Below, piece after piece: positions 7,238 to 32,433 of a stretch of DNA of 64,000 bases. Positions within the stretch are counted from its first letter, which is position 1. Each line of letters opens with the position of its first letter. The notes beneath the pieces were generated by a model. That model was not told where the DNA came from. It made no database searches and worked only from the letters and a program-made list of their open reading frames with translations. Source of the DNA: Pseudanabaena sp. lw0831 (GTDB taxonomy: Bacteria > Cyanobacteriota > Cyanobacteriia > Pseudanabaenales > Pseudanabaenaceae); contig NZ_BBJB01000078.1 of NCBI RefSeq assembly GCF_016584665.1, forward strand, positions 1 to 64,000. The letters run 5' to 3'. A program made the translations under genes and the position numbers.

Positions 7238-8284
7238 ATGCGATCGCAAATATATATTCCATTTATCCTACTAAACATCATTTTTTAAGCCACTGCTTGT
7301 AGTCAACAACCTGCTGTCAATAACGAAAAAGAAAACTTAGCTAAACCTCAGGCAACAACAGCAGAATCAACCACGCCACAGCCAACAATAAAAGTGGAGG
7401 CAATCGATTCGAGATCTTCAGTTAAGCAAATTCTGCTACCTACAGGTGTATACAACTCAGGCTCAAGATACATTACGATCGCAGCTAAGGGAGACCGAAC
7501 CTGTTATCAAGGTGTTTCTATGCCATCTGGACGCTATGCCGTAGCCGTTGGCGAGACTACTGGCACTTTATCTTCTGAGAAGGATTATTTTGTTGTTGAT
7601 GGCTGGAAAAAACATGGAAGAACTGTCACTTTAAGTCAGAATGGTAAGAATCTCTCTATATCAGTAGATGGTGGCTCTCCCTCTGAATATAATTTCTTTC
7701 AAAAAGATAGTGGAGAGAAATATTCTGAATCACTAATGAATTGTTTGAATAGTACTGGCGAGTTTTTTGAAACCGAGCCTAATTATACTATCTCTACTTC
7801 AACTGGAAGTCAGTCAAAGAAAGAAACTGGGAATTTATTGACTTCAGAACAAAAGGCATTACTTCTGCAATTGCCAATCCCAATTGTTGCGCCAAATTTT
7901 ATTCCAGAAGGGTTTCGCTTAGTTTATGCCAAGGGAGAAGCGAACAAATATGCTAATGGTGATGATGACTCTGGTTACACGATCGCTTATCAAGGAGAAA
8001 ACAATACCTGTATTAGTATCAGCTCATCTAGCTCTGGCTCACGAGGATTGCAAAGAGCAAATGAAGTCCAGACGGAATTTGGCTCAGTGGTAGTTTATAC
8101 AGATAATGCTCGTGACAACAGCATCAGGAGTATTTCGAGCTTTTTAGTGCTAAAAGGAAATCCAGCACTCATCTCAGGTGGAAGTATTCCAGATAGTAGT
8201 GCAGATGGTGGGTTTAGGCGTTGTGAACCTGTGGGAATGGGAGTCTATATGCAAGTGCTAAAGTCGCTAACATTGGTGAAATGA
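7238..8284 (+). pseudogene. Lipoprotein gene with an in-frame stop codon in the signal peptide
   Basis: Reading from the ATG at 7238 gives MRSQIYIPFILLNIIF, then TAA at 7286-7288, then ATACSQQP and the rest of the protein in the same frame with no other stop until 8284. The combination of basic start, hydrophobic run and ..ATAC fits a lipobox, so the intact product would be a lipoprotein of about 348 residues. One base change (TTA to TAA) explains the break. A GTG at 7394 could start a 296-residue product lacking the export signal. The body has no domain I recognise. Confidence 0.7.
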
Positions 8285-15826: not shown

Positions 15827-17905
15827 TTATGAACTGCTTGTGTGGGATTTTATTTTTCTCTGAGCTTTCAGTAACTTAATTGTATTAGGATCGGCATCTT
15901 TACGCCAGATGACTCTATGTCCTTGAAGTTCGACATAATTCTGATCGAGAATCTGTTGCCAATCTTGCATATGACAAGTTTCTGTAATATTGTCTATTAG
16001 TGCCCAACTTTCCTCCTGTTGGGTGAGCTTAGCAAACTTCTCGTACTGCGGATAGCTAGGCATCAAGTAAGATTCTTTGCGATGTAAGATCGGCGGGTTG
16101 GTCGAGCTACGGCGATCGTGGTAGCGAACTTGCAGATCTCGCAAATCAATTTGCATTGATGTCTGTAACTTGGGGTGTGGATCTATATCAAAGTCTGGAT
16201 AAAATAGATAGGATATTTTGGGGTTATGCAAATGGAACTTGACTAAGGTTGCGCCATCCATTCTGCCAATTGTACGACTGACACATCCTTCATATAGTCT
16301 CAACATAATATCCAAATTATCAAGTGCCGAGACATGCACATAGAGCGCTTGACTATCTAATCTACCAATCTTACTGTTTTGGCAACAGGTTGCGATGAAT
16401 CCAGATTTTCCTAAATTAAATAACATCAAAGCAGAAGTAGTACTTGCCCCTTGGTATGACCCAAATAGAACTTTGATATCGGTTTGATATAGTGGCGAAA
16501 GCTGACTAAGTTTAAGCCTTTTGTCTGGATTATCAAAATTGCTGAGTGCAAGAAATACAAGAATATCTTGGCGGCGCTTATCGGAGATCGCATCCCATTC
16601 ATCTTGATTGGTAGCACTAACAATTAAGTTAAAGGCGCGGCGTACCGTTCCAAATTCCGTCAGTAACGGCTCGAAGTTTTGCAATTCATCTCCAGTTGGC
16701 AATCTGCCCCGCTCTGTGAAGAAATCCATCAAGGGAGTAAGTAATTTGCGATAGTCTTCAAATCGTTTGGAGACTAGTCGGATTCTGGGTGTTGTCGCTC
16801 TCGAACGAAAGCGTGATGCTCTGAAGCTTTGCGCTTGCATCTCGTCGCGAAATACAAAATAAATGCCGAGAGCGACAGGCACAGAATCTACGCCTAACAC
16901 TTGATCGATATAGAGTTTGAGTTCTTCTTGTTCGTAATACTTCTGGAAAGTGTTACGGCTACTCACCACACCGTCACTGTAGGCGATTTGTCCTTTGCCC
17001 ACATCACCGATTAAAACTTGTGCGGAGACAATCAAAACTTTCTGAGTTAATTCCCATGCTTTGATGAGGGCTTCTCTTCTTTCGATCTGCGATTCAATGA
17101 CGTTGAGAATATAGCCGAGGTTGACGATTTCGGCACTTGTGCGATCGCATTGTGGTCGATAGTATGGGTCCCAACCTGAGCTAGTGAATCCGCGATCGCT
17201 AATTCTTTTGATATCTTCGCCATGCCCACAGCCATAGTCAAAGAAGGTTGAGCTTTCTGTAAAGAGTCCCGCTTCTAGGGCAAGTCGAACAGGCTTGGAT
17301 AGATCGGGGCGATGAATGGCAGCTTTATGGCGATCAATTTTGATGTTGCCTTCACCCTCAGTCCCTTTCCCAGAGGGCGAGGGGAGCAAGATGACCTGAT
17401 GACCTTTAAGTTTGACATTGTATTCCTGTAAACGTTGCTCCCATCCTTTACGAGTGCCGATGGTGCGCGTCTCATGAAATAAGCCGATCGCTTCTTCTTG
17501 TTTGGTTAATTGGGCAAATAGTTGATAGTTGGGGTAATCTGGGTTTACAAAGGTTTCTTTGCGATGCAGGATTGGAGGATTAGGTGGGTTTTGATAGTCT
17601 CGCTGCTGAACTATTTGGGCTTTTAGGTCAACTTGAATACTGTGATGTAATGCAGGATGTGGATCTGTGTCAAAGTTTGGATAAAACAAATAAGAAATCT
17701 TGGGTTGTTCGTAATTAAATTTGATCAGAGTAAATTCACTTTCTTCTGGAAGTAGTAATCTGGCTTGGCTATCGCATTCTTGTAATTGTGGAGAGAGATA
17801 GGCGATCGCAGAGATATGCACATAAAGCGCAGTTGGCAACTTTTTGCCAATAGAACTCTGCTGACACATAGTAATGATTTGGCTATGGTTGCTCTCTGTA
17901 ATCAT
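15827..17905 (-). CDS. DNA phosphorothioation-associated putative methyltransferase with duplicated flanking domain
   Basis: Last gene of the dnd modification operon, matching the Dnd-associated methyltransferase family. The SAM-binding motif is FFDYGCGHGEDI (about residues 221-232), preceded by the family segment RHKAAIHRPDLSKPVRLALE. Residues 14-173 and 507-667 are two copies of one domain: both contain ALYVH, KISYLFYP, DPHP, PPILHRKE and an LT-QEE stretch. A GC-rich repeat encodes residues 174-187, at the junction of copy 1 and the methyltransferase. It overlaps dndE by 23 bases, or starts at the ATG at 17869. Function in phosphorothioation is not established for the family. Confidence 0.82.
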   Translation of the reverse strand: MITESNHSQIITMCQQSSIGKKLPTALYVHISAIAYLSPQLQECDSQARLLLPEESEFTLIKFNYEQPKISYLFYPNFDTDPHPALHHSIQVDLKAQIVQQRDYQNPPNPPILHRKETFVNPDYPNYQLFAQLTKQEEAIGLFHETRTIGTRKGWEQRLQEYNVKLKGHQVILLPSPSGKGTEGEGNIKIDRHKAAIHRPDLSKPVRLALEAGLFTESSTFFDYGCGHGEDIKRISDRGFTSSGWDPYYRPQCDRTSAEIVNLGYILNVIESQIERREALIKAWELTQKVLIVSAQVLIGDVGKGQIAYSDGVVSSRNTFQKYYEQEELKLYIDQVLGVDSVPVALGIYFVFRDEMQAQSFRASRFRSRATTPRIRLVSKRFEDYRKLLTPLMDFFTERGRLPTGDELQNFEPLLTEFGTVRRAFNLIVSATNQDEWDAISDKRRQDILVFLALSNFDNPDKRLKLSQLSPLYQTDIKVLFGSYQGASTTSALMLFNLGKSGFIATCCQNSKIGRLDSQALYVHVSALDNLDIMLRLYEGCVSRTIGRMDGATLVKFHLHNPKISYLFYPDFDIDPHPKLQTSMQIDLRDLQVRYHDRRSSTNPPILHRKESYLMPSYPQYEKFAKLTQQEESWALIDNITETCHMQDWQQILDQNYVELQGHRVIWRKDADPNTIKLLKAQRKIKSHTSSS
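17347..17388. repeat. Interspersed GC-rich repeat inside the methyltransferase gene
   Basis: The stretch containing CCCTCAGTCCCTTTCCCAGA and GGGCGAGGGG reads in frame as LPSPSGKGTEGEGN. This is the type of CCCTC/GAGGG repeat seen between genes in many cyanobacteria. Here it forms the linker between the first domain copy and the methyltransferase domain. Confidence 0.65.
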
Positions 17906-18287
17906 GGTTGTTAGCCAATAAAATTAGATCTTCTAACTTTTTGATATTACGATCACCTGCAAGATAGCCAATACCACGATGCAAGTGAAGGCGAAATTGG
18001 GTGGCTAGGGTTTCTTTGTCGGTGGCTAGTCCATCGTTATAACAGCGTTGTTTGAGGGCAACAATTAGAATATCTGACAGATTACCAGCAAAAACTTGCC
18101 AAGTCATCTCCACATTGCTATCTGTGACAATATTAATCATTGATGGAGGAGTTGGTTCAGCAAGAGATTTACATAACGCCCAACGACAGAGGATGTTCCA
18201 ATATTCAATACGAGTAGCACGTTTGAGTTTGAGTAGTTGCTCTCTGGCATTTTGAGAGAGGCGAATGCGATCAATAGGTGGTTCCAT
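17883..18287 (-). CDS. dndE: DNA sulfur modification protein DndE
   Basis: Small subunit of the Dnd phosphorothioation machinery, reported to bind nicked DNA. The 134-residue product has the family opening DRIRLSQNAREQLLKLKRAT and the central block GNLSDILIVALKQRCYNDG followed by FRLHLHRGIGYLAGD. It lies 37 bases downstream of dndD and overlaps the methyltransferase, so the four genes are probably one transcript. It shows no truncation. Confidence 0.93.
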   Translation of the reverse strand: MEPPIDRIRLSQNAREQLLKLKRATRIEYWNILCRWALCKSLAEPTPPSMINIVTDSNVEMTWQVFAGNLSDILIVALKQRCYNDGLATDKETLATQFRLHLHRGIGYLAGDRNIKKLEDLILLANNHDYREQP

Positions 18288-18324: not shown

Positions 18325-20316
18325 TTACCAGAAGTATCCTGATCGCACGGAGGTGCGGTTGGTTGATTCGTCGTAGTCTAGGAGATATTCGTGTGCGAGT
18401 AGTTGATTTTGGCGGAGGCGAGTTACTTCTTCTTTGCCGATTTCGGTATCGGTTGAGAGTAGGATGACTTGCTGACTGGCGTTGGGGAAATAGCGATCTA
18501 GAAGGTTGAGTCGGTGGGATGAGTCCAAACGACCGAGAGGGGTATCGATCACGACAGGTAACTGGCAACCTGAGACACGGGCTAATCCCCATAAAAAGGC
18601 GATCGCTAACATTTGTTTTTCACCTGCGGAAAGGCGATGTTTGGGGATAGCTTTACCTTCAGCGTTGTATAGCTCTAATCGAAATGTATCGGGGGCGATC
18701 GTGATGCGATGCACAAGGCGCGATTTGTGTAAAAGGTGGAGAAAGCATTCTGTGACGCTGTTTTCTAGTTGAGCGATTTTATGGGCGGTGAGTTCTTTTC
18801 TAAACGAATCCATTGTAAATTGTACTTTAACAACTGACTGGAAGAAAAATTCTAGATTGCCCCTTGCGACTATGGTAGTTCCATAGTTTTCTAGTTCTTT
18901 TTTGCTGGAGATTAACTTGCGTTCTAAAAGGGCTAAGTTACGCTGAGCATCGTCTAGCTGATTGGCTAAAGATTCGCAAACCGCTTCGGATTCTTCTTTC
19001 TTTTGCAAGAGTTGCTGATAGATTTCTGGACTTGCGGCAGAGGCAATCACATTTTGGATTTGGGTACTTTCGCGATCGCAAGATTCCAATTTTTGCGCTG
19101 CGGTACTTGCTAAAGCAACGGTTTTAGGTAAATCATGCGCTAAAAGATTTGAGAGTGATTTCACCAGCTCTATATCGCTACCAAGCCATATTTCTCCGTG
19201 CTGCGATTCATCTTCGAGTTGAGCGAGTTCGGTTTCCAAAAACTCTTGGACTAAGCGGTTATATTTTTTAGGGAAGTTCTGGTCTATAAATTCTGACAGT
19301 TTGCGATCTCGCTCTTTAATTAGATCTAGAGCAGCTTTAGCTTTTTGCAAATGTATCTCTTTTTGGCTTTGGGAAAGCGCTTGTTCTAACAGAGGTGATT
19401 TAATCAACATCATGGGTAAACAAGTTTCTGCTAAATCTAGCAATGCTTTTCTTTGCTGATCAGATTCTTCTTTGAGTCTGTGATAGCTTTGTTCTAACTC
19501 TTGCTTATCTCCTGCGGCTTTCCCGCCTTTACGCATAAATTCACGTTCAGCTTCTGCAAAAGTAGCTTTAGCTTGTTCGAGGTCGGCTTCCAGTTGGGTT
19601 TTATGTGCTTCTTCTAATTCAATCTCTGCGGATTGTTGCGCGATTTGGGTCTCAATCTCTGTGAGTTTATTAAAAGCTTCTGTGTCAGATGATTCACGCC
19701 GTTTTTTGCTGGCTAATACTTCTAAATCAATTTCTAAGCGATCGACTAGCTCTAGTCCGAGAATTGTGCGAATAGCATCGACAATACCCTGTGTGGGAGT
19801 GTCTTGCAGAGCAAGTTCTCGAACTTGTTCACCATCAAATAGAAATAAGCCCGAAATGCCTATAGGCATGATCTCTTCGATAAACTCATCCCATGTGTTA
19901 GTCAGGGTTTCGTTATTCCAACTATCGACACGCACCTCTAGAATGTCACGACCATTTTTTGGTTGCTGTGTCCAACGACGGGAGATCGAGATCGGAACTT
20001 GGCGCAGTTCGGATTTATTGAAGCTGGCTTGTTCAAAGACTAATTCGATCGCAGCTTCTTCGCCGATTTTGGCTTCGCGATTGACGCTTTGAGATAAAAA
20101 TTCGCCATAGCTTAAGTTGCCTCGCGTGGAGCATTGGGCTTTTGCGCCATATAGGACAAGGCGGAGGGCATCGATAAAGGTCGTTTTTCCACCGCCATTT
20201 AAGCCACCTAACAGGACAATTGGTGGATGGTCTTGATTGACATCGACAGAAAGATTAATCGTGTGCTTTCCTTGATAAGCACCGAAATTTTGCAGAGTTA
20301 GTTCGCGAAAAATCAA
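18325..20316 (-). CDS. dndD: DNA sulfur modification protein DndD (SMC-like ATPase)
   Basis: ATPase of the Dnd complex, thought to expose DNA for sulfur incorporation. Walker A GGLNGGGKTTF is near residue 38, a long coiled coil with charged heptads follows, then a signature LSAGEKQMLAIAFLWG and Walker B VVIDTPLGRLD. A TTG at 20316 gives the start LIFRELTLQNFGAY and overlaps the dndC stop as TTGA, implying coupled translation; an ATG at 20361 would sit inside dndC. Length is about 663 residues, normal for DndD. Confidence 0.93.
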   Translation of the reverse strand: MIFRELTLQNFGAYQGKHTINLSVDVNQDHPPIVLLGGLNGGGKTTFIDALRLVLYGAKAQCSTRGNLSYGEFLSQSVNREAKIGEEAAIELVFEQASFNKSELRQVPISISRRWTQQPKNGRDILEVRVDSWNNETLTNTWDEFIEEIMPIGISGLFLFDGEQVRELALQDTPTQGIVDAIRTILGLELVDRLEIDLEVLASKKRRESSDTEAFNKLTEIETQIAQQSAEIELEEAHKTQLEADLEQAKATFAEAEREFMRKGGKAAGDKQELEQSYHRLKEESDQQRKALLDLAETCLPMMLIKSPLLEQALSQSQKEIHLQKAKAALDLIKERDRKLSEFIDQNFPKKYNRLVQEFLETELAQLEDESQHGEIWLGSDIELVKSLSNLLAHDLPKTVALASTAAQKLESCDRESTQIQNVIASAASPEIYQQLLQKKEESEAVCESLANQLDDAQRNLALLERKLISSKKELENYGTTIVARGNLEFFFQSVVKVQFTMDSFRKELTAHKIAQLENSVTECFLHLLHKSRLVHRITIAPDTFRLELYNAEGKAIPKHRLSAGEKQMLAIAFLWGLARVSGCQLPVVIDTPLGRLDSSHRLNLLDRYFPNASQQVILLSTDTEIGKEEVTRLRQNQLLAHEYLLDYDESTNRTSVRSGYFW

Positions 20317-21929
20317 GACTGTACCTCTGCAATTGGGGAGCCAAATTTCATCGATGCCCAACTATTGACTTTTTTGGGAGACTCTGAGTCGTCAGGTTTG
20401 GTTGGCTGTCCTAGTGCAAGTTGACGCACTTTATCAGCATCTCCTGCTTGGGCAGCATCTCGAAGATCTTTAAATCGATGGGCGTTTTGAATTGCTTCTT
20501 CTTGCGATCGCGAACTGGTTTCAAAGCATTTTTCGAGGGCTTCATAGATACCGACACGGCGCATTTTGCCATAATGTTGCTTTTCAACGCTGAGCAGTTT
20601 GGTGGTGAGTTCGAGGTGCATGGCATTTTCGCCACAGAGTCGAGCAAGAATTTCCCATTCATCGGCTCCTAACAGGCTTTGATTGTTGGGATTGTTGATA
20701 TCTTGGAATTTTTGACCTGTTAGATCGAGATAAATATGTGGCAGTGCGTCATCAAATTCATGTTTATCTTCACGCCAAATCCGCCGAATTTCGCTAAGTT
20801 CAGCTTGAGTAATTAGTTCAATTTCTTGCATTTCAGGAGGTGCATTTTTACGCGCTTCGGTTTGTGCTTTGAGTAATTCCCTCAGCCAATGTTCGCGCCA
20901 TTTTTTGGTGTAAGGTCCTGGGATCGGCTTGACTTCTTGTTTGCCGTCGCTGTTGTGGGTAAATAGCTGTACGTTGCCACTCATTCGCCTAAAGTCACGT
21001 TTGTCCCAGTCATCGGGGCTATCGAGGGCATTGCGTAGATCTAGCATGGGCTGCATCCATTCTTTTTCGTCATCATTGAGGATCATCGCTTCCATAGATT
21101 TGTCTTTGTTGACGAGGGTGCAGACCCAGCAACCAAAGCGAGAGTCACCACAGCTAGGGGTGTTGCTGTCGATCACCAGAGGGCATTCATTGTCGGCAGT
21201 TGCGCCGCGATACATGGTGAAGAGGTCTTGATTGCTATTGCCCCAAGGGTTGGGATATTGCATGAGGTATAGCCATACTTCGCTGTTGCTCCAGTCGGCG
21301 ATTGGGCTATAGATTAAGGAATTGGGTAGGCTGCCGCTATAGAGCAGGGATGTGAGATTGCTGTCACCAAGGCGATCGCCGATGCTGCCCATTTCGTGAT
21401 CGGTCATCGATCGCGATCGCCTAGAGCTTTCGGCTTTGCGTGTGCCAAGGACGATGATTACTTCACCTTTTGCCCTGACGACGTTTTGGACAAATTGGTT
21501 AGATGGTTTAATTTTGAGGCGTTCGGTACACCATCTAAAGCCGTTGCGGGGGGCGGGGTAGCCTTTGCCAATCAAGTTGACCCAGAAGGTGTCTTTGACA
21601 TCAGGGACTAGCAGATTTGCAGAAATTGGTAAGCCTTGCTCGATGGCGGCGGCTTGCATATTCGCGATCGATCGCTTCACCCATGCGGCGACGATGGGGT
21701 TTTCAACGCGGGTGTCGGTGGTGATGACGTAAATCTGTTTGGTGCGGCGATCGCTTGGTAGTTGTTGGATGGCTTGCCAAACGAGTTGCAGGGTGGCGGT
21801 GGAGTCTTTGCCGCCTGAATAGCCAATAATCCAAGGGATTTCGTCATGGCAATACAACTGCTGGATCTCAATTATCAGCGCTTTGATGTCTTCAATTAAC
21901 TGGGGTGCAGTGCGTTGTGGTTCAGTCAT
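20313..21929 (-). CDS. dndC: DNA sulfur modification protein DndC (PAPS reductase-like)
   Basis: PP-loop ATPase with a probable Fe-S cluster that activates the DNA backbone for sulfur insertion. The PP-loop SGGKDST is at residues 38-44 of the 538-residue product, and cysteines in CGDSRFGCWVCT suit cluster binding. The ATG at 21929 (MTEPQRTAPQ) is preferred over one at 22001, which would read through the palindromic operator. It is the first gene of the operon dndC-dndD-dndE-methyltransferase; dndB and the cysteine desulfurase gene dndA are not in the window, so a general IscS/SufS would have to supply sulfur. Confidence 0.94.
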   Translation of the reverse strand: MTEPQRTAPQLIEDIKALIIEIQQLYCHDEIPWIIGYSGGKDSTATLQLVWQAIQQLPSDRRTKQIYVITTDTRVENPIVAAWVKRSIANMQAAAIEQGLPISANLLVPDVKDTFWVNLIGKGYPAPRNGFRWCTERLKIKPSNQFVQNVVRAKGEVIIVLGTRKAESSRRSRSMTDHEMGSIGDRLGDSNLTSLLYSGSLPNSLIYSPIADWSNSEVWLYLMQYPNPWGNSNQDLFTMYRGATADNECPLVIDSNTPSCGDSRFGCWVCTLVNKDKSMEAMILNDDEKEWMQPMLDLRNALDSPDDWDKRDFRRMSGNVQLFTHNSDGKQEVKPIPGPYTKKWREHWLRELLKAQTEARKNAPPEMQEIELITQAELSEIRRIWREDKHEFDDALPHIYLDLTGQKFQDINNPNNQSLLGADEWEILARLCGENAMHLELTTKLLSVEKQHYGKMRRVGIYEALEKCFETSSRSQEEAIQNAHRFKDLRDAAQAGDADKVRQLALGQPTKPDDSESPKKVNSWASMKFGSPIAEVQS

Positions 21930-21972
21930 GGTTGGTAAATTTGCCTTGTTTTTCGGGATATCCCTACTACTG

Positions 21973-21994
21973 TTGTAGTCCAAATGGACGACAA
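21973..21994. promoter_or_regulatory. Palindromic operator candidate in front of dndC
   Basis: 22-bp near-palindrome: half-site TTGTAGTCCA, two A bases, then TGGACGACAA. It lies 44 bases upstream of the dndC start. The same half-site occurs in the region between the XRE gene and its divergent neighbour (24278-24363), which makes the XRE protein the natural candidate to bind both. A convincing -35/-10 pair around it was not identified. Confidence 0.7.
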
Positions 21995-22049
21995 ATGGCA
22001 AGATGAAAGCTAAAGCCTGTGAATTGGCAAATTAGAATTGACAAATTAT

Positions 22050-23597
22050 TTATCCCCGAATCACGGTAATATTTCGTCCTGCGGGACTAATTGCCATCTC
22101 AGTCGTTGTCCGATCGCTAAGCATCGGTAACCGCTCACGGCGATCAAATATTACCAACCAGCCCGTATCTAAATTCAATCCCGATAGATATTTATCCAAT
22201 TGCTTTAAACCTTCATTGAGTGGGTCTGGCTTGCGATCGCGCCATACTTTTAACTCCATTCCCAAAGTCACTTTGCCATAGCGTAAACATAAATCCATTC
22301 TTCCTGAACCGATCGCATATTCGCGTTCCAAAGTCCCTTTACCATTGACCACCCGATGCAAAAATGCCATCAGCACTAGATGTGGCGCAATCTCTGGATA
22401 GGGGGTACTTTTAAACAATGGTTCTCCATGCTGTCGCCAAAATCCTAGAAATGACTCTAACAAGCGTTCAGGTAGAAATTCACCCTGTTCACTTAGCCAA
22501 ATTGGTTGAATATATCCCATTGAGGCTGATGTCACATAGGCAAGCACTCTGGGCAGTACCTCTTGATAAATGGGATTAGCGATCGCTAATCCATTCTCGT
22601 TACTACATAAACCTAAATCCAAAACATAGCGCACGTCATCCTGTGGCACATCTGGTAATTCCTGCCCTGCAAGGATTGGCTGAATGATCGCTCTTACTCG
22701 TTCTTCTCGCAATCGCTCAGCTAGGCTATCTAAATGAGTATCTTGTCTTTGAATCAAAATCTCTTTGGCTTGGTTGACGAATTCAGGTGTAATTGGAGTA
22801 TTGGTATCTTTGGCGATATATTCGGTGATTTCTTTGGCGATCGCATTGACGAGCCAAGGCTGACCTTGTGTTAAATGAAATGCTAAATCTATTGCTTCTG
22901 GTGTAAATATTTGTTCTGTGGCTTCTGTATGTTGTTGATAGAGATTTCTCACTTCTTCAAGAGTGAAGTTACTAAGCGTGAAGGAACGCACTTTGATGTT
23001 AAAGGGGCTTGAGGTATTGAGTCTCTCACCGCCTCCTGATGCATATTTATAATCGCGGACATCGCGCATTCCCACTAGGGCAACTGACTGTGGAAAGCCT
23101 TGCGGACGTAGTGGAAAGCCATCTCTTAGCTGTCGCAATACTGTAATTAAAGTTTGATTTTGTAAAGAGTCTATTTCGTCAATAAATAGAACTATTGGTC
23201 GAGGTGAAATTTCTGCCCAAGCAGATAATACGGCGTTTATACGCTGCCCTGATTCTGCTTCTGGTGCGCTGGGTGGATGTAGTTCTTTAGGCAGCCAAAA
23301 GCGTGCATTTTTGTACCAAGCTCCTAAGATTGCTTTTTCAGCTATTTCTGGTTGATCGGGGAATGCTGATCCTACTTCTACTGAAACCATGACGGCGCAG
23401 TATTTGCCACTGGCTGTTAGTTCTTGCGCTAATGCCATCATCGCTGTGGTTTTGCCAGTTTGCCTTGGGGCGTGAATGACAAAGTAATTTTCTTGGGCGA
23501 TCAACTGCTCTAGCTCTGGCAGGCGATCGCTTGCGGGTAGCATATAGTGAATATTTGGCTTACAAGGACCTGCGGTATTAAACCATTTCTTCATCAT
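22050..23597 (-). CDS. AAA-like ATPase with C-terminal PD-(D/E)XK nuclease-like domain
   Basis: 515 residues in two parts. The N-terminal STAND/AAA-like ATPase has Walker A APRQTGKTTAMMA near residue 44 and Walker B IVLFIDEIDSL. The C-terminal segment SGRMDLCLRYGKVTLGMELK has the D...ExK pattern of PD-(D/E)XK nucleases. This architecture is common in cyanobacteria and its function is unknown. It lies between dndC and the regulator block; whether it belongs to the Dnd system or is a passenger cannot be told from context. Confidence 0.78.
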   Translation of the reverse strand: MMKKWFNTAGPCKPNIHYMLPASDRLPELEQLIAQENYFVIHAPRQTGKTTAMMALAQELTASGKYCAVMVSVEVGSAFPDQPEIAEKAILGAWYKNARFWLPKELHPPSAPEAESGQRINAVLSAWAEISPRPIVLFIDEIDSLQNQTLITVLRQLRDGFPLRPQGFPQSVALVGMRDVRDYKYASGGGERLNTSSPFNIKVRSFTLSNFTLEEVRNLYQQHTEATEQIFTPEAIDLAFHLTQGQPWLVNAIAKEITEYIAKDTNTPITPEFVNQAKEILIQRQDTHLDSLAERLREERVRAIIQPILAGQELPDVPQDDVRYVLDLGLCSNENGLAIANPIYQEVLPRVLAYVTSASMGYIQPIWLSEQGEFLPERLLESFLGFWRQHGEPLFKSTPYPEIAPHLVLMAFLHRVVNGKGTLEREYAIGSGRMDLCLRYGKVTLGMELKVWRDRKPDPLNEGLKQLDKYLSGLNLDTGWLVIFDRRERLPMLSDRTTTEMAISPAGRNITVIRG

Positions 23598-23681
23598 GAC
23601 AGCTATTTAACAGGGCAATACTCTTTCAATATATAGCAACGAGCTAAGCAAACCTAATCCTGTAAATGAGGAGATCGTGAA

Positions 23682-24017
23682 ATGGATAAAGTAGGTAAAT
23701 ATCGGGAGTATGTTCAAAGTTTGTTGTCTCGATATGTGAGTGGTGATGTGTCAGATGATGAGGTTGAGGTGCAACTGATTTTTGATGTAGAAAGGGATCA
23801 TTATCAGTGGCTCAATATTGGCTGGCAAGAGTTAACTCGTGTGTATCGATGTGTTATGCATTTTGATATTAAGGATGGCAAGATTTGGCTGCAACAGAAT
23901 TTGACCGATCAAAATCCTGCGGAGGAGTTAGTTGCTATGGGTGTGGAAAGGCAGGATATTGTGTTGGGTTTGCAACCACCATATAAGCGTCCATATACAG
24001 ATTATGGAGTCGCATAA
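23682..24017 (+). CDS. XisI-like protein (fdxN element excision controlling factor family)
   Basis: 111-residue protein matching the XisI family throughout (YREYVQSLLSRY, then VERDHYQWLNIGW, ending IVLGLQPPYKRPYTDYGVA). In Anabaena XisI and XisH control excision of the fdxN element. No xisH is next to it and no excision element is visible, so it is a solitary copy with unknown role. It reads against the surrounding dnd genes. A possible ribosome site GAGGAG lies 11 bases before the ATG. Confidence 0.88.
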   Translation: MDKVGKYREYVQSLLSRYVSGDVSDDEVEVQLIFDVERDHYQWLNIGWQELTRVYRCVMHFDIKDGKIWLQQNLTDQNPAEELVAMGVERQDIVLGLQPPYKRPYTDYGVA

Positions 24018-24040
24018 AATCGGGGTTTTGAGAAATGATT

Positions 24041-24250
24041 TTACCTGCTGTTATTCTGCGGCAGTACCAACTGATCTATTTGGCAGTCAAAAACAATAAA
24101 AAAATTAACCGTAGGGATGCGCCGCCGTAAAAACTTCAAATGTTCTTCCGCATCTACTCTGCGTCGAAATCTTCCTACAATTACGCTTTGAATATTATTG
24201 GGGAGAGGACGAGCGATCGCCCAAGGGTGGAGCATTTCTTGGTAGCTCAT
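24041..24250 (-). CDS. Small conserved hypothetical protein divergent from the XRE regulator
   Basis: 69 residues starting MSYQEMLHPWAIARPLP, followed by VGRFRRRVDAEEHLKFLRRRIPTVNFFIVFD, a pattern I recall in short cyanobacterial hypotheticals. The frame can be extended to a TTG at 24397, but that extension reads through the operator cluster and is unlikely to be translated. Its promoter region is shared with the XRE gene, so the two are probably controlled together. Function unknown. Confidence 0.6.
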   Translation of the reverse strand: MSYQEMLHPWAIARPLPNNIQSVIVGRFRRRVDAEEHLKFLRRRIPTVNFFIVFDCQIDQLVLPQNNSR

Positions 24251-24277
24251 GGCATTAGCAATTAAATAGTGAAAGTT

Positions 24278-24363
24278 TTGTAGTCCAATTAGTCTACGAA
24301 TTGATCGTATGAATCCAAATGGACTACAAGGGTGTATAATTTTGTAGTCCATTTGGACACATT
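24278..24363. promoter_or_regulatory. Operator cluster between the divergent small gene and the XRE gene
   Basis: Three related sites. Site A (24278-24300) is TTGTAGTCCAATT followed by AGTCTACGAA, itself nearly palindromic. Sites B (24314-24329) and C (24342-24357) are perfect 16-bp inverted copies, TCCAAATGGACTACAA and its complement, 12 bases apart. A perfect -10 hexamer TATAAT (24335-24340) lies between B and C, oriented toward the XRE gene. This is the layout expected for autorepression. Site C contains the same TTGTAGTCCA half-site as the dndC operator. Confidence 0.75.
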
Positions 24364-24401
24364 TCTTTACAGGCTTAACATCCTCTGACACGATCAAAGG
24401 T

Positions 24402-24623
24402 ATGGGTAAAGCAGGTAAAACACTCGGACAAGTTCTTGAAAAATATAGTATTAGCCAAACAAATCTGGCTAATGCTTTAGGTGTAGGTCGTTCAAATATT
24501 TATCGTTGGATCAATGAAGTTAGAGATCCTAACTCTGAAACGGTTTTGCGGATTGTTGCAGCGTTAGAAAAAATTAATCCCACCGCAGCAAAAGAATTTA
24601 AGAATCTGTACATGAGTGACTAG
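24402..24623 (+). CDS. XRE-type helix-turn-helix regulator
   Basis: 73-residue single-domain protein of the Cro/CI type. The helix-turn-helix is SQTNLANALGVGRSNIYRW (about residues 17-35), followed by the usual N..RDPNSETVLRIVAALE. There is no sensor domain. It starts 39 bases after site C. Its stop overlaps the stop of the convergent HNH gene in a shared CTAG. The operator pattern suggests it represses itself, the divergent 69-residue gene and dndC; this is inference. Confidence 0.88.
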   Translation: MGKAGKTLGQVLEKYSISQTNLANALGVGRSNIYRWINEVRDPNSETVLRIVAALEKINPTAAKEFKNLYMSD

Positions 24624-25591
24624 TACTCTAGAAAAAGTTGATCGCATTGATTAAAAACATTTTCTTGATGCCATCGTAAAGCTTCGATTCTTGGCAAATA
24701 GCTTTGTTGTGCTGGCAAAACGATATTCTGACCGTGAAAATCTCGCATTGTCTGAGCGTGAGGTGATTCTTCCCTAAGATCGTTAGAGACAATAATTTTG
24801 TAATCATCATCAACGGTAAACCAACCGCGATCAAAAGCCCAGTGATGATTTTTGCAAAGGGAAAGCCCATTATCAAAGCGATCGTCTCGAAATTGGGAGA
24901 ACGGCTTGATATGCGCTCCATCGACAATATGTTGGTTTAGTGAATTGAGAACCTGTAACTCACAAAATGCACATCGATATTCATAAGCAGAGACAACTAT
25001 TCTACGGAAGGCAGCATCTCGCACAATTAATTTAGATTCATCTTCTACTTCACCAACTGAATAGACAGCCCCACCTCTCTCTCGTAAGCGATCTTGAAAT
25101 TCTTGAAAGGAATTGATTTGAAAAAGTTGCTCAATTTGTGATGATTTATCAGAAAACCAATTATTTACTAGGATATCAATTAAACTATTTCTTGATGATA
25201 AATTCTGAATTAACTCAAAAAGTTCATCATCAAAGTAAGCATACTGCACCGAATCTCTTAACCCACTTAAAGTTTTGATTTTCACTTTGGAGTTAATTAC
25301 AGGTTCAAATCCAGCCTTTGCTTTTAGATGCCAAAAGCCTTCACTTTGAAGATGAAAGAATGGCTGGGCAATATCCGAACGATGGGATTCTGAACCCAAA
25401 AAGCTCCAGTATTTGAGAAATGTGGCGATTAATTCAGGTGATAAAAATATTCGGTTTTGTCTGATTATTCCCTGCTGAATTAGCGCGATCGCAGATAAAA
25501 GTAATATTGGCTTATGTGGTGCAATTCCCCGCACACGGTCTACACGCAACTTCGCAAACTTTTTGGAATAGTACAGTAAGTCTTTGCTCAT
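24620..25591 (-). CDS. HNH endonuclease with N-terminal segment resembling sulfur-binding domains
   Basis: 323 residues. The C-terminal half is an HNH nuclease with CAFC, DGAHIKP, NGLSLCKNHH, the arrangement of zinc-stabilised HNH enzymes. The N-terminal part has APHKPILLLSAIALIQQG (about residues 24-41) and QPFFHLQSEGFWHL (76-89), which match by memory the APHKPLLLL and YPFWxLQxDGxW motifs of phosphorothioate-DNA-dependent restriction enzymes (SBD-HNH, ScoMcrA type). The tyrosine of the YP pair is replaced by Q76 while P77 is kept. No SRA domain is evident. It overlaps the preceding Dnd-associated gene by 4 bases (ATGA). Confidence 0.72.
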   Translation of the reverse strand: MSKDLLYYSKKFAKLRVDRVRGIAPHKPILLLSAIALIQQGIIRQNRIFLSPELIATFLKYWSFLGSESHRSDIAQPFFHLQSEGFWHLKAKAGFEPVINSKVKIKTLSGLRDSVQYAYFDDELFELIQNLSSRNSLIDILVNNWFSDKSSQIEQLFQINSFQEFQDRLRERGGAVYSVGEVEDESKLIVRDAAFRRIVVSAYEYRCAFCELQVLNSLNQHIVDGAHIKPFSQFRDDRFDNGLSLCKNHHWAFDRGWFTVDDDYKIIVSNDLREESPHAQTMRDFHGQNIVLPAQQSYLPRIEALRWHQENVFNQCDQLFLEY

Positions 25592-26046
25592 AGAAATCTA
25601 CTCAAATCAAAATCTTCTAACGATTCTTGATCTTTTTCCGCTAGCAGCATCAACAAAATTGCGTCGGTATAATCCACGCTTCCTTGTAAAGTGTTCTGTA
25701 AAACTTCAAGCCCTCCATTGGCATACTCTTCAAAAATTTGAACGCGGATATTTCCAGATTCTTCGTCAAGGGCAAGACTTTTAGGATCTTTGGTATGGGC
25801 GATCGCAATTAAATTGATTACAGGCTCATAGCCTCTAGCTACAAACTGATCTTGAGGAATTGGATCGGGTTCTTTTCTGGATGTTTTACCGAGAGGAATC
25901 TTCTTTCCTCGCTTAGCCCCAAGGACAGCCGCAAAAGTCATCACGTCAGCATAGGTCTGAAACGGCGCAGTAGGATTTTCAGCAGATCTTAAAGACCGTA
26001 CAAGTTCAGCTTTGTCTTCAGCAATATAGATTCTACGAATACTCAT
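25588..26046 (-). CDS. DNA phosphorothioation-associated protein 4
   Basis: 152-residue protein matching the Dnd-associated protein 4 family: it begins RRIYIAEDKAELVRSL and contains YADVMTFAAVLGAKRGKK, with an acidic C-terminus. Function unknown; the family occurs with dnd restriction-type modules. Its stop overlaps the HNH start as ATGA, implying that the two are expressed together. A decayed copy of its own 5' end lies directly upstream. Confidence 0.85.
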   Translation of the reverse strand: MSIRRIYIAEDKAELVRSLRSAENPTAPFQTYADVMTFAAVLGAKRGKKIPLGKTSRKEPDPIPQDQFVARGYEPVINLIAIAHTKDPKSLALDEESGNIRVQIFEEYANGGLEVLQNTLQGSVDYTDAILLMLLAEKDQESLEDFDLSRFL

Positions 26047-30255: not shown

Positions 30256-32376
30256 CTATAAATCCAGTAGCCCGTAGCGTTGCTGTAAGTCCACCAACTT
30301 TAGTCTCGCTTCACCGCCGTTATCAGCCAAGTTTGCAAATTCCACAAAACGTTGTAACTCTTTTCTCAGTAAATTGCGTTCCACATCCAAAGTCTCGCGC
30401 CCCAAATCAGGCGGTAATACAATCATGTCAAACAAAGTTGCCCGTCTTTTATCAGGATGCGATCGCAAAATCCTGCCCCGACGCTGAATAAATTGACGGG
30501 GATTGCTACTGCTCGCCAGCATAATTGCCGTTTGGATTGCAGGAATATCCACACCTTCATCTAAACATCGAATCGCCACTAGTCCCTGTAATTCACCAGT
30601 TTCAAACCACAACCTCAAATTTTCGCGCTCATCCAAAGATGTCTCGGCTGTATAGGTGTTAACGCGATATCCCAATTCCGAGCCTAGTAACTGCGCCACC
30701 GCATCTAACTGACGAGTGCTCTCAGTTGTCACCTCATCCTCGACCGAGCCATCACCGCAATAAATCAATGTATGTGTTGTCTCCAGACGTTGCTGCATCA
30801 ATTCTCGTAAAGCGACTAGCTTATTCGCCGCCGCCCCCAATAGCCTCGCCCGTTGCATCAATAAAGCCGCTACCATCTCGTTATCATTGCGATCGCTATC
30901 AAATGCGATCGCTCGACCAATTTTTTTCGTCAGATCAGCATATTTCTCAGTCTCAGAATCCGTCAGTTCCACCAAAATCGGATAGTAGAGATAATGCACA
31001 AGCGCTCCCGCTTTGATGGCATCCGCTAGTGTAAATTCTGGCTGAATTACTGCACCAAAATACTCAAATATTGCTTCTGTTCCATCCTCATCAAAATAGC
31101 GTTCTGGAGTTGCTGATAAAGCTAGCCTTAGTCCCACATTACGTGGCAAACTCTCCACTAAACGTTTTGCACCTAAGTTATGAGCCTCATCACCAATAAT
31201 TAAAGTTTTCTCAGGAAGATATCGCAACTGCGACTGTAATCCCTGACCAATCAGCGTCGCATTTGTAGTGATTATGGTCAAAAATTTCTGATTTCCCGAT
31301 CGCACGTTATAAAGTTGCGTAGACAGCCGATCTTGCCAATTATGAACACTTTCAAAAGCCAAGATTGGTTTCAGTCCAAATTTCTGACATTCCCTTGACC
31401 ATTGAATTACCAGATGGCGATAGGGACAAACGATCAGTAAAACCTGCAATCCAATCTTTTGATAAAGTTCAGTAGCGATCGCCAGCGCCGTAATCGTCTT
31501 ACCGCTACCCGTCGCCATCTTTAGCGTACCGCGTCCATTATTCTTAAACCAATTCGCGATCGCCTCTTTTTGATAATCCCGCAGTTCTAAATTAGAAGGC
31601 AATATCGGTAAACCATGATCTTGTTGAATGATAATGGGCATATATTCTTTATTTGCCTCTGACATCACAGGATTTCTTTTCTTGATTTCATCAATAGGAA
31701 ATTGATCAGGTCGTAAACGCAACAGCGATCGCTTGGCGGCTTCAGGAAAATCGAGAATGTCAAGCAATGGGGTTCGATTTTCCCATAACCGTCTAAAGTT
31801 CTCAGCCTTGCTCAAAGCTCTTTCCCTTATGCCTTCCTCCCAAGAGCAAAAAACATCAATACACTCAAAATTATCCATCAAAGCACTAGAACTCTCATTT
31901 GCCGATCCTGTAAAGGCAACAAGATTACCCGCTTCGTCAGAGAAAATCCCTAGCTTCTCATGATAGATCCCTCTTTGATTGCGAATATCCTTACGAATAG
32001 CAAGCTTAATCTCTAAAATATTTTTACTCAAAAGCCACGCCAGACAGGCTAAACGATCTTTGACAACCTCTTCAAACTCTTGATCTAATTCCTTTAACAA
32101 ACTCTGCGTAATAACTTCATCTCGCTGTTTGAGTCCCAGTGCGATCGCTTCAGCATCCTGCTCTGACAAACATGGTGAAGCAATCAAACGCATCTTACCG
32201 CCAGAGCGAAGTAATGACATTAGCCCCTTGGCGACTGTTGCCATTGAGGTACTAGAAAAAAATCCCACCGCTCGACTGTAGAGAATCGAGTTTTCTAAAC
32301 AAGGAATGTAAAAATCTTGCACTAAATCGCAGACATCGCTGCGATATTCACTTTGAAGATTTAGATCGCTCAGCAC
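30256..32376 (-). CDS. DNA phosphorothioation system restriction enzyme (PLD nuclease-helicase)
   Basis: About 706 residues. An N-terminal phospholipase D-type nuclease domain has HEKLGIF...FTGSANESSSA, and an SF2 helicase follows with MATGSGKT, GDEAHNLG, SATPER and QRRGRILRS. This is the architecture named as a Dnd-linked restriction enzyme in cyanobacteria. The GTG at 32376 follows AGGAGATGCAAA, a good ribosome site, so it is preferred over a TTG at 32409 inside a palindrome. It is the first gene of the restriction-side block. Confidence 0.85.
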   Translation of the reverse strand: MLSDLNLQSEYRSDVCDLVQDFYIPCLENSILYSRAVGFFSSTSMATVAKGLMSLLRSGGKMRLIASPCLSEQDAEAIALGLKQRDEVITQSLLKELDQEFEEVVKDRLACLAWLLSKNILEIKLAIRKDIRNQRGIYHEKLGIFSDEAGNLVAFTGSANESSSALMDNFECIDVFCSWEEGIRERALSKAENFRRLWENRTPLLDILDFPEAAKRSLLRLRPDQFPIDEIKKRNPVMSEANKEYMPIIIQQDHGLPILPSNLELRDYQKEAIANWFKNNGRGTLKMATGSGKTITALAIATELYQKIGLQVLLIVCPYRHLVIQWSRECQKFGLKPILAFESVHNWQDRLSTQLYNVRSGNQKFLTIITTNATLIGQGLQSQLRYLPEKTLIIGDEAHNLGAKRLVESLPRNVGLRLALSATPERYFDEDGTEAIFEYFGAVIQPEFTLADAIKAGALVHYLYYPILVELTDSETEKYADLTKKIGRAIAFDSDRNDNEMVAALLMQRARLLGAAANKLVALRELMQQRLETTHTLIYCGDGSVEDEVTTESTRQLDAVAQLLGSELGYRVNTYTAETSLDERENLRLWFETGELQGLVAIRCLDEGVDIPAIQTAIMLASSSNPRQFIQRRGRILRSHPDKRRATLFDMIVLPPDLGRETLDVERNLLRKELQRFVEFANLADNGGEARLKLVDLQQRYGLLDL

Positions 32377-32400
32377 TTTGCATCTCCTAATCGTTATACC

Positions 32401-32433
32401 AAAACACAAAATGGCGTAGCCATTTTGTGTTTT
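32401..32433. repeat. Perfect palindrome upstream of the helicase gene
   Basis: 15-bp arms AAAACACAAAATGGC and complement around GTA (apex GGC-GTA-GCC). An almost identical arm pattern (AAAGCACAAAATTGC around GTA) occurs at 43786-43818, one of the few cases where two family members resemble each other. Confidence 0.88.

Follow-up and report, generated by a model that had tools for sequence, protein, structure and literature searches.

What restrains DNA phosphorothioation in a dnd locus that encodes no DndB? This protein, described as a member of the ParB/DGQHR superfamily (PMC10853773), regulates dnd transcription, in Salmonella via TACG-N10-CGTA palindromes situated before the operon (PMC4507180, PMC5005934). 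The 64,000-nucleotide stretch of Pseudanabaena sp. lw0831 analyzed here (the window) harbors a dnd locus, and the absence of dndB that a first-pass annotation had reported for the window extends to the whole genome, in which neither a DGQHR domain nor a match to TIGR03187 was found. The same annotation had proposed that a small XRE protein represses itself and the dnd operon. Our analysis suggests that this 73-residue protein is likely a regulator dedicated to the locus, which would bind palindromes in its own leader and before dndC, most likely repress dndC, and tune its own expression.

Gene content and operator sites of the dnd locus

The locus comprises dndC (20313-21929; TIGR03183, 685 bits for a cut-off of 290), dndD (18325-20361; TIGR03185, 590 bits) and dndE (17883-18287; TIGR03184, 128 bits; PF08870), together with genes for a dnd-associated methyltransferase (15827-17905; TIGR04096, 831 bits), the dnd-associated protein 4 (25588-26046; TIGR04062, 163 bits), a dnd-associated restriction enzyme (30256-32409; TIGR04095, 665 bits), and an HNH protein of the PT-DNA-binding restriction family (24620-25591; PF13391, and NF045808 with an E-value of 2.2e-44 that lies below the cut-off of the model), all on the minus strand. 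The putative regulator is encoded on the plus strand (24402-24623) and belongs to the XRE type based on its HTH_3 domain (PF01381, E-value 1.6e-8, 34.9 bits for a cut-off of 23). It matches HTH models only in profile searches, and its structural model displays a helix-turn-helix with helices at residues 19-26 and 30-39 (mean pLDDT 83). Its gene lies tail-to-tail with the HNH gene, the two overlapping by 4 bp, and this pair is conserved in relatives. Upstream of the XRE gene are found a divergent small ORF (24041-24250, minus strand, 69 aa from its ATG), homologues of which adjoin other XRE genes, a xisI-like gene (23682-24017, plus strand; PF08869, E-value 1.7e-43), and a gene for an AAA ATPase of 515 aa (22050-23597, minus strand), located between both operator regions described below. 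In relatives (four loci), the interval from the XRE region to dndC contains anything from none to three copies of the ATPase gene in tandem. An ORF of about 70-110 aa usually separates the XRE leader from the dnd genes, as seen in five further loci besides the window, and outside the genus these small ORFs share an EPVK...EW(S/T) pattern.

The first-pass annotation had pointed out a 22-bp near-palindrome in the dndC leader, which we recover at 21973-21994, 43 nt before the dndC ATG. This site, TTGTAGTCCAAATGGACGACAA, is a perfect palindrome (TTGTAGTCCA-WW-TGGACTACAA) but for one mismatch and can be read as TTGTAGTCCA-AA-TGGACGACAA; it is conserved in all dndC leaders read in the genus. A 10-bp palindrome, GGGATATCCC, lies in the same leader (21955-21964) and is identical in every dndC leader listed for the genus. 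Three related sites had also been claimed between the XRE gene and its divergent neighbor, and they too are present: O1 (24278-24299), which precedes the divergent small ORF by 28 bp, O2 (24308-24329), the right half of which is perfect, and O3 (24342-24363), which abuts the -35 element of the XRE gene and ends two bases before it. Two of the three are only half-perfect, and the segments 24314-24329 and 24342-24357 form perfect 16-bp inverted copies, as described earlier, that flank GGGTGTATAATT. The TATAAT between O2 and O3 was considered as a promoter element and set aside: it is not conserved in relatives, and therefore is probably not one. The predicted XRE promoter is rather the element TTTACA-N17-CACGAT (24366-24394, plus strand), which a generic scan did not detect, but which is found in homologues as well and belongs to a leader with 35 of 38 columns invariant. 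Since it ends 7 nt before the XRE ATG, we infer that the XRE mRNA would be leaderless or nearly so, with its start at or beside the ATG.

Specificity, conservation and taxonomic spread of the sites

When up to three mismatches were allowed, the palindrome matched twice in the window and not once in 100 dinucleotide shuffles, so that chance does not account for the dndC site. The whole genome (5.26 Mb) contains the same two palindrome sites alone, and the reversed control gave none. Across 26 genomes of the genus, all matches with at most two mismatches fall at dndC or XRE leaders, again with no match of the reversed control, and those of the 26 that lack a dnd locus have no match at this threshold. 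A motif serving a genome-wide regulon was ruled out, there being no further operator sites in the genome, and lone half-sites elsewhere were likewise rejected as a regulon, as they occur at the frequency of the control. The operator was not found in the viral contigs searched, nor were phage genes seen at the dnd locus.

The XRE leaders of eight genus genomes display a marked footprint of conservation: 20 of 22 columns are invariant in O3 and 10 of 10 in the right half of O2, versus one of 12 columns kept in the spacer separating them. At the dndC site of genome G014, both ends are altered jointly (CTGTAG..CTACAG), preserving the symmetry. A related genome with this XRE gene and no palindrome before dndC would have spoken against a shared operator, and we met no such case: the palindrome precedes dndC in the XRE-bearing genomes with an intact dndC G000, G012, G014 and G023, while in G008, where the dndC leader is lost, dndC follows the small ORF directly behind the three XRE-leader operators. 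In G005, the dndC operator lies beside a broken dndC, inside a longer inverted duplication, ATATCCCTATTACTG-TTGTAGTCC...GGACTACAA-CAGTAATAGGGATAT (about 8110-8200 of locus L069).

Beyond the genus, the XRE-HNH pair adjoins dnd genes in several cyanobacterial families. In a separate collection of the 80 closest XRE homologues, dnd genes are found no more than 8 kb away in 43 cases and a convergent HNH gene in 16. Wherever dndC, dndD or dndE lies on the upstream side, it is divergent from the XRE gene (39 of 39 loci), at less than 2 kb in 35 of them; this divergent upstream gene is dndD in Nostoc relatives and mostly dndC elsewhere, and in G126 the XRE gene and dndC are immediate divergent neighbors, separated by a region with half-sites. 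Also divergent from XRE genes (four loci) are short ORFs whose match to DndC is limited to its 100-130 C-terminal residues. For the remaining 37 homologues, some of them on short contigs, no dnd gene was seen nearby, which indicates that dnd is not the sole partner and that the wider family serves other genes too. No second operator was found near distant dndC or dndD genes outside the genus, where operators occur solely in the XRE leader. The conserved switch common to the XRE and dnd genes, together with the relatives encoded beside dnd, suggests that XRE is probably a dedicated dnd regulator, in which case the link would be broader than first proposed and extend to dnd loci across cyanobacteria.

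The strongest evidence that XRE reads these sites comes from the covariation between its recognition helix and the operator. Homologues in other cyanobacteria have palindromes of their own at the same place, immediately upstream of a conserved promoter TTTACN-N17-CACGAT. Using a Mantel-type comparison, we related operator similarity to the similarity of successive nine-residue windows of XRE, with the rest of the protein partialled out. The correlation peaks at residues 28-36 (partial r 0.463, p 2e-4, n = 41 homologues), the highest of all windows tested, although relatedness is corrected only approximately by this procedure and shared ancestry is not fully removed. These residues overlap helix 30-39 of the model, i.e., the recognition helix. 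The comparison tolerates offsets; with a fixed register the partial correlation is weaker (0.165), because the distance from operator to -35 shifts between subgroups. In terms of sequence, recognition helices of the form GRSN[IVL]YRW pair with TTGTAGTCCA half-sites, also in other families at 63-75% identity, whereas GASN/GSSN proteins pair with CACAGTCCA sites and ERNN proteins with AACCACTAGGA sites. Based on this covariation and on the conservation footprint, XRE likely binds O1-O3 and the dndC site.

Loci without the XRE gene

Four genomes of the genus (G015, G017, G024, and G025) possess a dndC palindrome that is perfect or has one mismatch, yet lack the XRE gene, and a hidden copy sought across these genomes was not found (best E-value 0.007). 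The operator alone is thus no proof of XRE control. Exactly these four among the genus genomes carry genes of the DGQHR (DndB) superfamily, each with one at its dnd locus. The alternation between XRE and DGQHR has a Fisher p of 0.008 for intact loci and of 0.002 when remnant loci are included, both uncorrected for kinship. It is a tendency at the level of the class, where among 76 genomes with dndC at least eight have XRE without a nearby DGQHR gene and at least four have both (Fisher p 0.007), the XRE counts being lower bounds. The DGQHR proteins of the XRE-less loci are of at least three kinds, and both of those tested fall below the DndB cut-off.

The accessory slot between dndC and the gene of dnd-associated protein 4 (four loci) is occupied either by XRE and HNH or by a DGQHR cassette. 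At least three such cassettes occur, with a partner protein encoded alongside that measures 166, 324 or about 450-510 aa, and the content of the slot is apparently swapped as a unit. The dndC genes of G025, with a DGQHR cassette, and G023, with XRE and HNH, differ at one of 229 four-fold sites. Such near-identity in spite of different cassettes implies that the exchange can be very recent, and that the operator of G025 may be a relic. With the exception of this pair, the dndC genes of the four XRE-less genomes differ from the others at 21-38% of four-fold sites. In other cyanobacteria, 13 of 20 DGQHR-dndC intergenic regions, mostly from genomes of one family, contain a different palindrome, GTTTTTAAAAAC, with at most one mismatch (about 0.01 expected per region), and in six of the 20 it is present twice, 64-66 bp apart. 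It is possibly the operator of a DGQHR/DndB-type circuit; a search for the Salmonella DndB box in the same 20 regions returned just two matches, each with one mismatch.

Two other readings of the dndC site have to be weighed against these loci. XRE might control only itself and the promoter of the divergent small ORF, the dndC palindrome being a relic or the target of another factor, such as a host protein present in strains with and without XRE. The retention of an almost intact palindrome in XRE-less strains, most of which have well-separated dndC genes, agrees with this. A host factor would hardly explain that the palindrome matches the XRE-leader sites and is absent elsewhere in the genomes, the G025/G023 pair indicates that losses of XRE can be very recent, and dndC of G008 sits right under the XRE leader; we therefore judge such a restricted role of XRE unlikely. 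It could also be envisioned that in XRE-less strains the dndC operator is read by the DGQHR proteins instead. Cyanobacterial dnd loci would then exchange regulator-plus-effector cassettes (XRE with HNH, or varied DGQHR) in which unrelated regulators recognize one conserved site. This would account for the strict alternation within the genus and has a parallel in the palindromes bound by Salmonella DndB (PMC4507180), but we find it quite improbable, as the DGQHR proteins concerned are of several different kinds, the DGQHR-dndC regions elsewhere carry GTTTTTAAAAAC without a good XRE-type site, and the cassettes may encode effectors and not regulators.

Proposed mode of control and comparison with known regulators

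We propose that XRE would bind the 22-bp palindrome as a dimer, both at the three copies that separate its gene from the divergent small ORF and at a fourth that lies across the dndCDE promoter region, at a distance of 2.3 kb. Whichever of the two plausible -10 elements is taken (TAATAG or TATCCC, read from the leader sequences), the dndC palindrome would overlie the -35 region, a position that fits repression: XRE bound there would cover the -35 region and block the polymerase, and from O1 it would repress the divergent promoter in the same manner. Such repression would keep modification low, matched to the restriction genes. The sites in the XRE leader lie upstream of the XRE -35 and fit self-activation as well as self-repression, or both; like C proteins, XRE could possibly activate its own promoter when scarce and repress it when abundant. 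Of the circuit originally suggested, the reading of the sites by XRE and the linkage to dnd are thus sustained by covariation and conservation, whereas repression is deduced from site position and, at the XRE gene itself, is matched by self-activation. We consider control of dndC by XRE probable, and repression of dnd plausible given where the site lies.

Alternatively, XRE might activate both dnd and itself from an upstream operator, in the way of a C protein. In most homologues the operator indeed abuts the XRE -35 from upstream, which is where an activator site is expected, and C proteins exert both activation and repression on the promoters of their own genes (PMC4824078). The location of the dndC palindrome suits repression with either -10, and dndC has a single site instead of an activator/repressor pair, which makes activation of dnd somewhat unlikely in our view. 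As for the 18-bp inverted repeat made by O2 and O3, it could act as an RNA hairpin or terminator and not as protein-binding sites, and a terminator-like match is found at 24314-24357. Yet both arms belong to palindromes of their own, conservation does not extend to the loop, the dndC site lacks a second arm to pair with, the sites covary with the recognition helix of XRE, and the inferred start of XRE transcription is downstream of O2 and O3, all of which renders a hairpin most improbable.

The proposed repression of dndC by XRE resembles in its logic the C proteins of restriction-modification systems. As in C.Esp1396I, a small HTH protein has palindromic operators before its own gene, its transcript may have little or no leader, and a modification gene, here dndC, is preceded by an additional operator, which C.Esp1396I has before its methyltransferase gene (PMC4824078). 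XRE is nevertheless not a C protein by homology, none appearing among its phmmer matches at E ≤ 0.1 and C.BclI, C.AhdI, and C.Esp1396I being among the weak fold matches of its model only (E ≥ 0.05), nor by gene arrangement, as the HNH nuclease gene converges on XRE instead of following it in one transcript. Moreover, phosphorothioation is the modification concerned, and the operator sequence is unrelated. With DndB, XRE shares its predicted target, dnd transcription through palindromes before the operon, as demonstrated for DndB in Salmonella, but it is a 73-aa XRE protein with a different operator from those of the DndB proteins of Salmonella and Streptomyces. Like RptR, BrxR/CapW and other repressors of defense islands (PMC12255303, PMC9122589, PMC9122601), it is a putative regulator conserved beside defense genes, with an operator in the promoter of the island, although these belong to other protein families, have other operators, and are partners of type I restriction, BREX, and CBASS rather than dnd. 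The HTH fold and the several operators in a divergent promoter region are also reminiscent of P22 c2, lambda cI, and the Xre protein of ICEBs1; unlike for such cI/Cro-like repressors of phages and ICEs, no phage genes were seen at the locus and the operator does not occur in the viral contigs searched. The literature covered, which is incomplete and makes the novelty provisional, yielded no description of an XRE protein regulating dnd, nor was such a regulator seen in the available parts of a study of Dnd neighborhoods (PMC10853773) and of another on the origin of dnd (PMC8569181).

DndB is encoded in 52% of the taxa with Dnd modification, as given in the former of these studies (PMC10853773), and cyanobacteria have been proposed as the origin of dnd in the latter (PMC8569181). 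Were XRE dedicated to dnd, it would, with its operator mapped, offer a testable answer for many cyanobacteria to how phosphorothioation is restrained in the absence of DndB. The loci of G023 and G025, nearly identical in dndC and carrying an XRE cassette in one case and a DGQHR cassette in the other, constitute a natural experiment in this respect.
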